Of a stretch of 64,000 bases of DNA, positions 18,500-23,908 are shown piece by piece (the stretch's first letter is position 1; each line of letters begins with the position of its first letter). Location of the stretch: assembly GCA_947647615.1 (NCBI GenBank), contig CANSKS010000005.1:1-64000 (forward strand). Direction: 5' to 3'. The position numbers were made by a program, and so were the translations under genes. The stretch is from an uncultured Neglectibacter sp. GTDB lineage: Bacteria > Bacillota > Clostridia > Oscillospirales > Acutalibacteraceae. The notes below the pieces were generated by a model. That model did not search any database and had not been told where the DNA came from. It saw nothing but the letters and a program-made list of their open reading frames with translations.

Positions 18500-19423
18500 T
18501 CAATGGGTATCGGGATAGGCTTCCTGGTACTGGGAGGGTGTCATGCCTGTTTTGCTTTTAAACACCTTCAAAAAGTAAAAATAGTCCTCAAACCCGCAGG
18601 CCGCACTGGTTTCCGAAATGGTGTGGCCGGAGCTGAGCATACGCTTGGCCTGATCCACCCGCAGGATCCCCTGCATTTGCTTGATCGTCACGCCGTACAC
18701 AGTCTGAAAAATGGCATTCAGATGGCGGTAAGTTCTGCCAAACGCGGCGGCGTAGTCCTGGTTTTGCAGCTGCCGGCCTTTGTTGTTATCGATATATCGC
18801 AAGATCCGGAGGGCCATTCTGTTTTCCCTATTGGACCACAGTTTCTTTTTTTGCATAGCCAGGCTTAGCTGGTACAGGATCGCCTGGATCTGGGAAGAGA
18901 GGAAACTCTCGCTGAAAAAGGGCGGAGCCCGGTGGCAGGCCGCATACTCCATCAGGTCAAAGCAGGAGAGCTCCAAGGGGACCTGCCCCCACAAGGGCAG
19001 CAGGATGTGGCCGGGATCCAGCTCTGCCGGAGGCGGGGACTCTGCCCCCTCTGCCTGGAAATGAGCGAAATACGCCTCATGTTGGTCATACTGAAGCCCG
19101 TAATGCCGCACATATGGCGGCAGCAAGAAAAATTCTCCGCTGTGAACCACATGGTCCTCCCCATAGATGCGGAAGGTCCGCGTTCCGTTGATCATCAGCA
19201 CCAGGACCCACTGGGCCATCACCCGGTCTGGGTGTACGTTCCCGCCGCTGAATTTATCCACGATCTCCACATGGGCCTCCCCTGTCAGCCGGAACCACCG
19301 GGAGATCCCTTGTCCGGTATCCATAGATGCCGCACCTGCCTTTTCCAATAAGTCCATTTCATAATAGGCCGAGCCGGGGGGAAAAGTCAAGTGAGGATGA
19401 ACAAAAATATCCATTTTTTCCAT
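18500..19423 (-). CDS. AraC-family regulator
   Basis: 307 residues. The N-terminal half is a cupin-like ligand domain (RIYGEDHVVHSGEFFLLPP) and the C-terminal 100 residues hold two helix-turn-helix motifs (QDYAAAFGRTYRHLNAIFQ and ISETSAACGFEDYFYFLKVF). Such regulators usually sense a sugar and activate a divergent gene. The gene is divergent from the Gfo/Idh/MocA oxidoreductase with 77 bases between the starts, so that is its likely target. The DNA is richer in G+C than the flanking housekeeping genes. Confidence 0.85.
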   Translation of the reverse strand: MEKMDIFVHPHLTFPPGSAYYEMDLLEKAGAASMDTGQGISRWFRLTGEAHVEIVDKFSGGNVHPDRVMAQWVLVLMINGTRTFRIYGEDHVVHSGEFFLLPPYVRHYGLQYDQHEAYFAHFQAEGAESPPPAELDPGHILLPLWGQVPLELSCFDLMEYAACHRAPPFFSESFLSSQIQAILYQLSLAMQKKKLWSNRENRMALRILRYIDNNKGRQLQNQDYAAAFGRTYRHLNAIFQTVYGVTIKQMQGILRVDQAKRMLSSGHTISETSAACGFEDYFYFLKVFKSKTGMTPSQYQEAYPDTH

Positions 19424-19500: not shown

Positions 19501-20658
19501 ATGAAAAATGGCAAGCTCAGAGTGGCGTTGGTAGGGGTCTCGTTCGGCGCGGAATTTGTGCCCATCTACCTGAAACACCCGGATGTGGATTCCCTGGTAC
19601 TGGTGGATGTCGACCGGGAAAAGCTGGACAAGATTGGCGACAAGTTCCTGCTGGAAGAGCGGCTGACGGATTTTGACGCCATGTTGGCGGACGAGACCAT
19701 TGACGCGATCCATCTGGTAACGCCCCCGGCCACCCACGCTCCCCTGTCTGTGCGGGCGCTGAACGCGAACAAGCACTGTGCCTGCACCATTCCAATGGGA
19801 ATGAGCCTCGACGAACTGCACCAAGTCATCGAGGCCCGGAAAAAAAGCGGGAAGCACTATATGTTCATGGAAACATCTGTCTATGGGAGGGAATTCCTGT
19901 ATGTGAAGGACCTGTACGAAAAGGGGGAGCTGGGCAGGATCCAGTTCATGCGCTGCGCCCACTACCAGGACATGGAGGGCTGGCCACAGTACTGGCTGGG
20001 CTTCCCGCCCCTGATGCACCCTACCCATGCGGTGGCCCCCTGCCTGATGCTGCTGGGCAAGCGCCCGGAGAGCGTGTACTGCAAGGGCTCCGGCGCGGTG
20101 CGCAAGGAGGTGGAAGCCGCATATGGCTGCCCATATGCCTTTGAGTCGGCCCTGATCACCTTGAAAGACAGCGACGTGGGCATCGAAATGGCCCGGTTCC
20201 TCTACCATGTGGCCCGGGGCTACACAGAGAGCTTCAACATTTACGGCGAACGGAGGAGCTTTGAGTGGCAGCAGCTGGAAGCCGAGCAGCCGGTGCTGTT
20301 CTCCATGGCATTCGACCCCCATGCCGGACATGTGATGAACGACTATGGCCGGGGAGGGTTGGTGACGGAAGAACGTATCGAAATCCCCGACTACGCAGAC
20401 CGTCTGCCCGCGGAGATCGGGCGCTTTACCCGGCAAACGGTGTATGACGACAGCAATCCCCACCTGGCGTTCCTCCAAGGCGGAGGCCACGGGGGATCCC
20501 ATCCCCACCTGGTTCATGAGTTCGTTCGGAGCATTTTAGAGGACCGGGACCCTGTCCCCAGTGACATCGACGGCGCCTACTGGACCGGTGTGGGGATCTG
20601 CGCCCACCAGTCCGCTATGGAGGGTGGCGTGATAAAGCGTGTGCCTGTTTTCGGATAA
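19501..20658 (+). CDS. Gfo/Idh/MocA-family oxidoreductase
   Basis: 385 residues. It has an N-terminal NAD(P)-binding Rossmann domain (LRVALVGVSFGAEFVPIYL, then VDVDREKL) and the C-terminal alpha/beta dimer domain of this family, with the HLVTPPATHAPL stretch after the Rossmann fold. Family members oxidise or reduce sugars, inositols or sugar acids. The usual catalytic EKP motif is not obvious; the equivalent region reads CTIPMGMSLDEL, as in some subfamilies. AAGGAGGATACGAA precedes ATG 19501. The AraC gene and the downstream glycosidase suggest a role in plant-polysaccharide sugar metabolism. Confidence 0.83.
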   Translation: MKNGKLRVALVGVSFGAEFVPIYLKHPDVDSLVLVDVDREKLDKIGDKFLLEERLTDFDAMLADETIDAIHLVTPPATHAPLSVRALNANKHCACTIPMGMSLDELHQVIEARKKSGKHYMFMETSVYGREFLYVKDLYEKGELGRIQFMRCAHYQDMEGWPQYWLGFPPLMHPTHAVAPCLMLLGKRPESVYCKGSGAVRKEVEAAYGCPYAFESALITLKDSDVGIEMARFLYHVARGYTESFNIYGERRSFEWQQLEAEQPVLFSMAFDPHAGHVMNDYGRGGLVTEERIEIPDYADRLPAEIGRFTRQTVYDDSNPHLAFLQGGGHGGSHPHLVHEFVRSILEDRDPVPSDIDGAYWTGVGICAHQSAMEGGVIKRVPVFG

Positions 20659-20717: not shown

Positions 20718-21205
<488 letters not shown>

Positions 21206-21316
21206 GGGAATATATAGTCCGCAGGGTTTTGAAGGGTGGGCAGTAAACCATTGGTCGGTTGTCCCCGGGCCGTCTTTGTGGTATTCTTGAAAAAACGTCA
21301 AGGGGGAGAGATAAGA

Positions 21317-23398
21317 ATGAACATGACTAAGACAGGGAGCCTGATCACCCGGCTGCGTCTGGGCTTAGGCCTGACCCAGGCCCAGCTGGCTCAGCGGCTG
21401 GATGTGACCGACAAGGCGGTATCCAAGTGGGAGCGGGGGAAAAGCCTGCCAGACATCGCTCTTTTGAACCGGCTGGCGGCGGAGCTGCGGGTCAGCGTGG
21501 TGGAGATCCTCAGCGGCGAGCTGATAAATGTGGCCCGCAGCAGCAACTTAGATGGCCCCGGGGCCGGCGGAGAGGAAACGGGGGAGGACAAGCCCTGCTC
21601 TCTGCGGCTTACGGCTCCCGGTGATCTGATGGTGCCGGACTATCTCTTCGGCAGCAATCTGGAGCACACCCGCTCCTGCATCCACGGCGGACTGTCCGCC
21701 CAGATGCTGCGCAACCGAAAATTTGCCGGAAAGCCCACCGCCTGCCGGGGCTGCGCCATGGAGTGGTATCCCATCGGTCAGGAGGCGGTCTTTACCTTTG
21801 ACCGGCCCTACACCCGCCACGGAGAGGGCTACCATATGAACCGCATCCTGGAGTGCAATTCTCTCAGCGTGTTCAATCCATGCCATACTGCTGGGCTGGG
21901 GCAGCACGGCCTGTCTGTCCAGAAGGGGAAAACCTATCTGTTCGCCGCAGTGGTCCGGGCCAGGGAGAGCCTTCCCCTCTCGGTGTCCCTGACTGACCGG
22001 GCGGGGAGCGAGGTCTATGACCGGCGGGACCTGCTGGTGGAGGTGGGGGACTGGACCCGCTATGAGCTCGAGCTGACCCCCAGCGTGAGTGATCCTGACG
22101 CGGATATCCGCGTTTGCTGGGACAGGGAGGGGGCCGTCTGCTTTGGCGCGCTGTCCCTGATGCCAAAGGAGAATTTCCAGGGGATGCGCCGGGATGTGGT
22201 GGATAAGCTGAAGGAAATGGGGATCAGGGTGCTGCGCTGGCCAGGCGGGAACTTCGCCGGGGAGTACAACTGGATGGACGGGCTGCTCCCGGCGGATATG
22301 CGTGCGCCCCTGCAGTCCTATCTGGGCTTGGAGACCCAGCCCCATACTATGGGCTATGACTATGACGAGATCAACACGGATGATTTTATCGCCCTGTGCC
22401 GGGAGATCGGGGCGGAGCCGTTTATCACCATCAATCCCTGCTGGAACACCCCGAAGGAAAACGCCGCCTGGGTGGAATACTGCAACGGCGGCAGCGACAC
22501 GAAATACGGACGCCTGCGGGCGCAGCGCGGGCATGAGGAGCCGTATCACGTGCAGTTCTGGTCATTGGGGAACGAGTTCGGGTACGGCCACATGGAGGGG
22601 GACAACACCCCGGGGGGCTACTGCCAGACCGCCCTGGAAAACGGCCGGAAAATGCTGGAGGTCTCCCCGAACCTGAGCCTTTGTTCCTCGGGTCCATACC
22701 CCAGCAAGGAATGGTCGGAGTTGTCCGCCCGGCCCCTTTCCGGCATTTCCCGGCTGATCTCCCAGCACTACTATGGGTACGCTCCCTGTTACACCAGCCC
22801 CGCCACGGTAGAGCAGGAGTACAACCGGTGCATTACCTCTGTTTCGCGAATGCGCCAGCTGATCCATCAGTCCAGGCAATGGCTTGAACCCGGCGTGCGG
22901 ATCTCCCTGGACGAGTGGAATGTCTGGTACGCCTGGTATCGCCCCTCCAGCGTGACGGACGGCATTTATGCCGCGCTGGCCATGCACCTGCTGATCGAGG
23001 AGTCGGAAAAAAGCGGCGTCGCCCTGGCCTGCCATTTCCAGGCGGTGAACGAGGGAATGCTGTGCGTCGGGCCGGAGGGCGTAGCCCTGACGGCGCAGGG
23101 GCAGATTTTCTCCCTGATGCGGCGCCACGCGGGGAACCGCCTGTGCTCCGCTGCCCAGGAGGCGGTGGTGACCAGCGGCCCGGAGGGCGGGTACATCGCC
23201 ACGGTGGTGAACGCCTCATTCCGCAAGGAGAAAACGGTGGACTTCCCCTCTTTTGGCCCCTGCCGGGAGGCGGCGCTCTATTTCAGCGAAACCGTCCTGC
23301 CGCCCTCCGTCTTTGAGAAAAAGGACGTTTTGGATGAGGCCCTGACGGCTCGCTCCGTACGTATACCGCCCCACAGCGTTTTGTTTCTGCGCTTTTAG
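21317..23398 (+). CDS. XRE helix-turn-helix fused to GH51-like alpha-L-arabinofuranosidase
   Basis: 693 residues from ATG 21317 (GGGGGAGAG upstream). Residues about 8-67 are a Cro/C1-type helix-turn-helix (LGLTQAQLAQRLDVTDKAVS). A short Gly/Glu linker leads to a full GH51-type arabinofuranosidase from about 95: LFGSNLEHTRSCIHGG, a carbohydrate-binding-like insert, then the barrel (RWPGGNFAGEYNWMDG). The acid/base is in SLGNEFGYG (Glu420) and the nucleophile in SLDEWNVWY (Glu533), both present. The C-terminal beta domain ends at RIPPHSVLFLRF. There is no signal peptide, so it is cytoplasmic. The DNA is G+C-rich with no gene break in the junction. It could be an enzyme that also binds DNA in response to arabinosides. 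No such double role is known to me. Confidence 0.85.
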   Translation: MNMTKTGSLITRLRLGLGLTQAQLAQRLDVTDKAVSKWERGKSLPDIALLNRLAAELRVSVVEILSGELINVARSSNLDGPGAGGEETGEDKPCSLRLTAPGDLMVPDYLFGSNLEHTRSCIHGGLSAQMLRNRKFAGKPTACRGCAMEWYPIGQEAVFTFDRPYTRHGEGYHMNRILECNSLSVFNPCHTAGLGQHGLSVQKGKTYLFAAVVRARESLPLSVSLTDRAGSEVYDRRDLLVEVGDWTRYELELTPSVSDPDADIRVCWDREGAVCFGALSLMPKENFQGMRRDVVDKLKEMGIRVLRWPGGNFAGEYNWMDGLLPADMRAPLQSYLGLETQPHTMGYDYDEINTDDFIALCREIGAEPFITINPCWNTPKENAAWVEYCNGGSDTKYGRLRAQRGHEEPYHVQFWSLGNEFGYGHMEGDNTPGGYCQTALENGRKMLEVSPNLSLCSSGPYPSKEWSELSARPLSGISRLISQHYYGYAPCYTSPATVEQEYNRCITSVSRMRQLIHQSRQWLEPGVRISLDEWNVWYAWYRPSSVTDGIYAALAMHLLIEESEKSGVALACHFQAVNEGMLCVGPEGVALTAQGQIFSLMRRHAGNRLCSAAQEAVVTSGPEGGYIATVVNASFRKEKTVDFPSFGPCREAALYFSETVLPPSVFEKKDVLDEALTARSVRIPPHSVLFLRF

Positions 23399-23440: not shown

Positions 23441-23908
23441 GTGAACAGAAAGGGAAAACGGCTCCTCCTCATGGGAGCACTGCTCATACCTGAGGTTTTT
23501 GCTCTTCTGCTTGGGACTTTGGCTGGGACAAAGGACCCGGGCTTTCAGGCCCTGCCGTCCCTGCCGGCTCCCAAGCTGCAATGGGCCTTCATCACCCGAG
23601 AGGGAGGCGAGCTTTCGGAATACGGCTGCCTGCTGCCGGATCCCCGCCGTCTGGAGAAACTGACCGGGGTGCCGGTGGAGGCCACCGTATGTACGGCGGA
23701 CAAATTCATGAACCTGATCGCCGCCAATAAGGCGGTGGAAAGTTGCCGGCAAATCCAGGTGGTACGCATCGTCGTTTCCACGCCCCAGAGCGAGGTGGAG
23801 CAGATCTACCGGGAGACCCTGCTGGAAATGGAAAACCGGGGCCATGACCTGATGGTGCAGTGGAAGCAAAACAAGTACCGTCAGGCAATGCTGCTGGTAA
23901 CGGAATGA
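23441..23908 (+). CDS. hypothetical membrane-anchored protein
   Basis: 155 residues from GTG 23441 (GGAAGGAGGG upstream). The start is a basic-then-hydrophobic segment (KRLLLMGALLIPEVFALLLG) that would be a signal anchor or signal peptide. The remaining 110 residues are a mixed alpha/beta domain that I do not recognise. It lies 42 bases after the XRE-GH51 gene, in the same orientation and with the same G+C-rich composition, so it probably belongs to the same unit. A terminator follows. Confidence 0.6.
   Translation: MNRKGKRLLLMGALLIPEVFALLLGTLAGTKDPGFQALPSLPAPKLQWAFITREGGELSEYGCLLPDPRRLEKLTGVPVEATVCTADKFMNLIAANKAVESCRQIQVVRIVVSTPQSEVEQIYRETLLEMENRGHDLMVQWKQNKYRQAMLLVTE

Follow-up and report, generated by a model that had tools for sequence, protein, structure and literature searches.

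Few enzymes are known to moonlight as transcription factors. Trigger enzymes such as PutA, BirA and NadR are catalytically competent and also bind DNA; to our knowledge, no glycoside hydrolase is found among trigger enzymes or among enzymes moonlighting as transcription factors. In the phage CI repressor, it is the C-terminal domain that pairs the helix-turn-helix (HTH) domains. The nearest described logic that we found is that of BtAraR, a member of the NrtR family in which a Nudix-like fold and a winged HTH share one chain and which controls sugar utilisation with arabinose as effector (PMC4666351). The same paper reports a degenerate Nudix motif, from which inactivity was inferred by its authors (PMC4666351).

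In the window, which is the whole stretch of 64,000 nucleotides that was analysed, an XRE-type HTH and a GH51-type enzyme are encoded by one gene. Its elements are as follows.

21300-21308, + strand: ribosome-binding site region AAGGGGGAG, a good ribosome-binding site by sequence ahead of the ATG at 21317
21317..23398, + strand: HTH-GH51 fusion gene, 693 aa (translation, Pfam, alignment, fold comparison)
21350..21508, + strand: XRE/HTH_3 DNA-binding domain, residues 12-64 (Pfam PF01381, AlphaFold2 model, dN/dS)
21527..21586, + strand: flexible linker, residues 71-90 (pLDDT <50; within the fast-evolving region 69-105)
21632..23395, + strand: GH51 enzyme portion, residues 106-693, borders approximate (Pfam, structure matches, model)
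22571..22576, + strand: N419-E420 (GNE), presumed acid/base, invariant in 24/24 aligned homologues
22913..22915, + strand: E533 (DEW), presumed nucleophile, invariant in 24/24 aligned homologues

The joining of an XRE HTH to a GH51 enzyme in one frame, which the earlier note had read from the letters, was borne out. The frame contains no internal stop, PF01381 is matched with E 1.2e-12 (48.1 bits against a gathering score of 23), and ASD1_dom is matched with E 1.6e-5 (25.1 bits against 22.2). The best solved-structure matches are the arabinofuranosidases 3s2c, 4atw and 3ug3 (E ~1e-49 to 1e-50, residues 283-615). Within the GH51 portion, an N-terminal beta region is followed by a TIM barrel at about residues 283-600 and a C-terminal beta domain, all with approximate borders. 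The fusion protein scores 127.4 bits with the NCBIfam ArfA equivalog NF051901, below the required 625, and no Nudix or ROK kinase-like domain was matched in it by Pfam at E 0.01, which places it outside the NrtR/AraR and ROK-type regulators. The same note had claimed that a signal peptide is missing, and this agrees with what was found, because the N-terminus is the first HTH helix (judged from sequence and model, without a signal-peptide program). A start further downstream that leaves the HTH out is unlikely, as the dN/dS of the HTH is 0.03-0.16 and its dN lies far below that of the linker.

The AlphaFold2 model, built with 24 sequences, reached a mean pLDDT of 79.7. It contains the five helices of an XRE/HTH_3 fold (residues 3-16, 21-28, 32-39, 47-57 and 61-66), with pLDDT block means of 79-95 across residues 1-70, and the TIM barrel and beta domain of a GH51 enzyme. 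The 20 linker residues 71-90 fall below a pLDDT of 50, as do residues 118-148, 177-179, 311-316 and 322-350. In the Foldseek comparison, MgGH51 (6zps) and the Thermotoga enzymes (3s2c, 3ug3) came out on top, and the best 46 matches are all arabinofuranosidase structures, with 17-28% identity over these alignments. The fusion protein resembles these enzymes in fold and in the GNE and DEW motifs, and the match to MgGH51 takes in the N-terminal region ahead of the barrel; it differs from them by the additional N-terminal XRE-HTH and by a conserved promoter site. The enzyme half thus appears intact in sequence and predicted fold. R307, N312, N419, E420, H484, Y486 and E533, to which we presumptively assign pocket roles, are common to the Thermotoga enzyme and invariant in 24/24 homologues, fused and unfused alike; both catalytic glutamates occupy the positions given to them in the earlier note. 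The roles of E420 as acid/base and of E533 as nucleophile are those which we take GH51 enzymes to have. In this 24-row alignment, L001 is cut off about 15 residues short of its stop, and for L011, L014, L016 and L024 the row starts at an approximate position rather than at a start codon. Since the pocket residues are invariant throughout, the protein should still be able to cut its substrate.

The fusion is not a chance event: 19 other distinct loci have the same full-length architecture, at 43-80% identity. Loss of the HTH in all homologues, which would have spoken against the earlier interpretation, is not what is seen. The 20 distinct fused loci examined are spread over three or more families (f1, f10, f16) within a single order. 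The same locus was counted once, and two near-identical pairs (L005/L023 and L007/L008) are among the 20. The genome-contig scan returned 24 loci, 15 of which align from residue 1. The survey counts are lower bounds, because scoring was limited to the first 2-4 candidates in each genome, with a cut-off of E <= 1e-60. A close relative was present in at least 6/250 genomes of the family, five of them with the HTH, and in at least 12/295 genomes of the order, where six have the HTH, four are without it, G468 is cut by a contig edge and the HTH frame of G498 (L121) is broken or cut. At class level the count was at least 2/391, namely the genome of the window and one whose match is without the HTH. 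A 35-row tree built from the GH part requires three changes of the HTH label, and its two later HTH-less clades (L116, L118-L120; L011, L014-L016) join fused rows by starred branches; one gain of the HTH followed by two losses may account for this pattern. L121 was left out of the tree labels. It sits in a fused clade with its HTH frame broken or cut at the start, possibly a third loss underway.

Against nine relatives, HTH residues 1-68 gave dN/dS values of 0.03-0.16 (dN 0.03-0.18), and the barrel gave 0.05-0.18 in the eight of nine relatives where it could be computed, so the HTH is about equally constrained. In the linker region 69-105, identity drops to 16-57% and dN rises to 0.31-1.37. 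Substitution patterns thus indicate that the HTH is under purifying selection and that the linker between two kept domains drifts freely. A conserved operon partner was sought by clustering the neighbours of 25 loci and rejected: the largest clusters, of AraC-like and Gfo/Idh-like frames, reach 7/25, with several loci cut by contig edges and the main gene displaced by a longer opposite-strand frame in L008, L014 and L019. We conclude from these neighbourhoods that the fusion gene lacks a constant partner. The genome of the window carries two more GH51-like genes, at C4:79069-80130 and C33:28942-29712 (L026, L027); in both, the match to the query covers the catalytic part only, with no fused HTH.

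The promoter of the fusion gene contains a candidate operator in a fixed arrangement with the promoter boxes.

21244-21261, + strand: putative operator TAAACCATTGGTCGGTTG, from comparison of fusion promoters, overlapping the -35 box
21259..21264, + strand: -35 box TTGTCC, overlapping the right arm of the operator, at fixed spacing in relatives
21282..21287, + strand: -10 box TATTCT, 20 nt after the TTG, at fixed spacing in relatives

Upstream of the fusions, the dyad TnnACYnnnRGTCGRTTG is found, the TTG of which starts the -35 box, with the -10 box 20-21 nt downstream. The pattern ACYNNNRGTCGRTTG occurs with at most one mismatch in 15/19 fusion promoters, 11 of them exact, at a distance of 67-89 nt upstream of the ATG; in 200 dinucleotide shuffles the mean was 0.03 and the maximum 2. 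The twentieth fusion, L117, has TAAACGGAGAGTTGATTG with two mismatches (by eye) and a -10 box at 20 nt. In total, a site with at most two mismatches is present in 16/20 fusion promoters, which is the conserved operator-like site expected of an XRE autoregulator. None of the 14 promoters of HTH-less relatives has one, their best match showing 3 to 5 mismatches; this comparison omits L022 (frame broken or without a clear start), L122 (contig edge) and L154 (found later), and several of its start codons, and hence its 150-nt stretches, are approximate. A natural pair is found in G279, whose fused copy L117 has the operator and whose HTH-less copy L123 is without it. The counts in cis are partly circular, because the pattern was derived from the same fusion promoters. 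Over 14 sites, with L008 and L023 left out as near-duplicates, information falls from 1.27 bits per position in the operator through 0.97 in the -10 box and 0.33 in the spacer to 0.06 upstream. The operator value is inflated, since the pattern itself served to anchor the rows. Both the -10 box and an invariant T three bases ahead of the pattern are unanchored in this count. Counted by phylogeny, the association of HTH and operator comprises three independent pairs and is not significant (sign test, median p 0.5). Four fusions are without a good site: L042, whose gene lies directly behind another on the same strand, has none; L013 has none under three mismatches; and in L017 and L018 the site is absent and the recognition helix reads DEKDVCAWEKG and DEKDINAWENG against TDKAVSKWERG.

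The site class also occurs outside the fusions. The operator-promoter composite was found in 12/250 family genomes (5/250 with the reversed-pattern control), that is in 4/5 fusion carriers against 8/245 other genomes. In five of these eight non-carriers (G045, G243, G132, G215, G123), the site lies in the promoter of a different XRE-HTH gene; the HTH was confirmed by profile search in G243, G132 and G215 and read by eye in G045 and G123. The five proteins, of 133 to about 374 aa, are much shorter than the fusion and are not GH51 fusions. The recognition helix is DKxVSKWER in G132, G215 and G123 and GAVHKWE in G045, and G243 was seen in its first residues only. In the other three non-carriers, the site lies ahead of the start codon of a Gfo/Idh-like frame (by eye) in G147, inside a frame in G214, and between frames with no obvious target in G019. 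Because five of the eight sites front other XRE regulators, the site looks like the operator of this HTH class, and this recurrence is the least circular evidence, because the pattern was made from GH51 fusions alone. The five loci in which an XRE regulator other than the fusion has this operator class in its promoter are L102, L103, L104, L106 and L107, and a GH4-like gene (by eye) follows the regulator in L106 and L107. Each of 14 genomes searched contains 2-21 matches to the HTH profile of the fusion at E <= 1e-7, the fusion included, and therefore another XRE protein could bind the site. The next most similar HTH in the genome of the window is L028 (C11:7478-7681), an XRE gene with a 166-aa frame; upstream of it lies a related dyad with different spacing, with two mismatches on the reverse strand.

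The genome of the window contains the exact pattern at two places, in the fusion promoter and at C8:35686-35700 (reversed control, one). The second site, at C8:35683, reads TAAACCAACAGTCGGTTG and is followed by TATACT 21 nt later. On one side of it is an ABC transporter/GH39 operon; on the other, towards which it reads, are genes for a histidine kinase and an AraC-type response regulator, which we take to be a YesMN-type pair. Neglectibacter timonensis has a site in the same intergenic region (C14:1404178) and the same arrangement, with 79-94% protein identity over six genes; there the operator is kept and the promoter spacer has diverged. A site with one mismatch and TATGCT lies behind the fusion gene of G251 (C256:2585), ahead of an ABC transporter. 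The permeases of this transporter share 56% and 47% identity with those at the C8 locus. The orthologous pair in G254/G264 and a site in G264 C22 have the full promoter geometry and no ORF of at least 100 aa in the reading direction. The C22 site is between a GH31 gene and a LacI-type gene; the pair is beside an AraC/Gfo-Idh pair, where L006 has its fusion gene, and because of this position its sites may be relics of a lost fusion gene. These operator-promoters without such an ORF are at L064:7326, L067:7857 and L065:7305, the first two beside the AraC/Gfo pair. With the composite at one mismatch, 24 sites were listed in 20 genomes, comprising 14 fusion promoters, five known trans sites and five new ones, of which L141, L142 and L151 are inside frames and L146 and L153 between frames. 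The frame behind L153 resembles a sensor kinase (by eye). A wider regulon, sought with a relaxed 18-mer at up to two mismatches in eight genomes (30 listed sites), was rejected. At 0-1 mismatch, 11/11 sites are between frames with a -10 box. Of the 19 sites with two mismatches, 17 fall within frames of at least 100 aa; the remaining two are the promoter of the L004 fusion and L074, which is between frames and has no -10 box.

The DNA-binding half of the earlier interpretation is thus well supported by comparison: within 21206-21316, where binding had been suggested, lies a conserved, HTH-linked site, and further sites exist in trans. The support for binding by the fusion protein itself is comparative in kind. 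By its enzyme half, this protein of a gut bacterium belongs to the enzymes that release arabinose from the sugars of plant fibre, and it is very probably also a DNA-binding switch that acts both on the promoter of its own gene and on those of sugar-uptake genes. Since the site overlaps the -35 box, we infer repression of its own gene and of the uptake regulators. XRE/Cro-CI regulators are like the fusion in the HTH, in a dyad over their own -35 box and in a flexible linker to a C-terminal domain, which in the fusion is a complete enzyme.

We regard it as rather probable that the product is a bifunctional cytoplasmic protein, an active GH51 alpha-L-arabinofuranosidase and at the same time a sequence-specific repressor of its own gene and of uptake, for which occupancy of the pocket is the proposed release. 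GH51 enzymes are usually oligomers, and the GH51 part may therefore oligomerise and bring the HTH domains into pairs, as in CI-type repressors. Such a pair would bind the dyad over the -35 box and block RNA polymerase; in trans it would act on the two-component system promoter beside the ABC transporter/GH39 operon and, elsewhere, on the ABC transporter itself. As long as an arabinosyl oligosaccharide, the presumed substrate, is absent from the cell, enzyme and uptake would be held low. Its arrival would fill the catalytic pocket and weaken DNA binding, and the enzyme would then reset the switch by consuming its own inducer. That substrate in the pocket relieves repression is plausible, and a digestive enzyme may in this way control the timing of its own production. 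The fuller view, in which a glycoside hydrolase is its own one-component transcription factor, with one pocket that senses, releases the HTH and destroys the inducer in a self-timing switch for enzyme and uptake, is held tentatively, with rather more doubt than confidence. The flexible linker of the model argues against simple allostery: as residues 71-90 form a low-confidence stretch of 20 residues, direct conformational coupling is less obvious, and rearrangement of the oligomer or steric masking seems likelier than a rigid lever.

The same flexible part of the model suits another explanation, in which the HTH sets the amount of enzyme, and of uptake, by ligand-blind negative feedback and the active site is uninvolved. 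A site over the gene's own -35 box, a disordered and variable linker, and the recurrence of this site class in front of XRE proteins that are much shorter and carry no GH51 enzyme would all fit it. The trans sites at sugar-uptake genes, however, suggest control beyond enzyme dosage, and the link to a substrate-specific enzyme would be incidental over a long history, for which one gain and two losses fit the tree; we think this explanation unlikely, and it ranks next after the pocket-controlled repressor. Less probable still is that some other XRE regulator binds the operator and that the fused HTH serves as an oligomerisation device or is a relic. The 2-21 related HTH matches per genome, and the altered HTH that L017 and L018 keep without a site, speak for such a regulator. 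Against it, the site is missing before the 14 HTH-less relatives, one of them sharing the G279 genome with a fused copy; the genome of the window has just two exact matches to the pattern; and constraint on the fused HTH is about as strong as on the barrel.

BtAraR shares with the fusion an enzyme fold and an HTH in one chain, and it offers a precedent for a catalytically dead regulator that uses the GH51 fold for ligand binding only, as BtAraR does with its Nudix-like fold (PMC4666351). The fusion differs from it in having an intact catalytic set and neither a Nudix-like fold nor a winged HTH, and the invariance of N419, E420, E533 and the other pocket residues in fused and unfused relatives makes a dead regulator highly improbable. 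The repressor with a working active site, which we prefer, would instead combine a competent enzyme with DNA binding as PutA, BirA and NadR do, which are not glycoside hydrolases. With a named candidate operator, two kinds of trans target and HTH-less sisters as natural controls, the idea of the pocket as sensor is open to direct test. The fusion also points to a possible means by which gut Firmicutes link the breakdown of fibre sugars to their uptake and, if the fuller view is true, it would count among several XRE-enzyme switches in this gut-bacterial order.

The claim that this is not a standard architecture stands in part. Among the titles listed in a literature search whose scope left out most subscription journals, none describes an HTH-GH51 fusion; XRE-enzyme fusions as such are not unique in the order. 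An XRE-HTH is fused to a phosphoglucomutase in L126:202-1824 and to an ADP-ribosylglycohydrolase in L127:159-1736, which share the N-terminal HTH_3 on an enzyme with the fusion and differ from it in enzyme family. In L124:114-2618, it is fused to about 770 aa matching no Pfam family.

In the window, the stretch ahead of the fusion gene looks like decayed genes. Just upstream of the operator, at 20898-21170 on the + strand, a remnant of the catalytic domain of an alpha-amylase is matched (PF00128, E 1.5e-5). An AraC-type fragment at 20718-21011 (- strand), covering HTH_18 profile positions 26-79 only, is near a pair formed by a full AraC gene (18500-19423, - strand) and a Gfo/Idh gene (19501-20658, + strand). 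Behind the fusion gene, at 23441-23908 (+ strand), is a 155-aa frame that matches no Pfam family. It looks internally deleted: L001 has a 484-aa gene at this place, and the two halves of the frame correspond to residues 32-98 and 419-476 of that gene.
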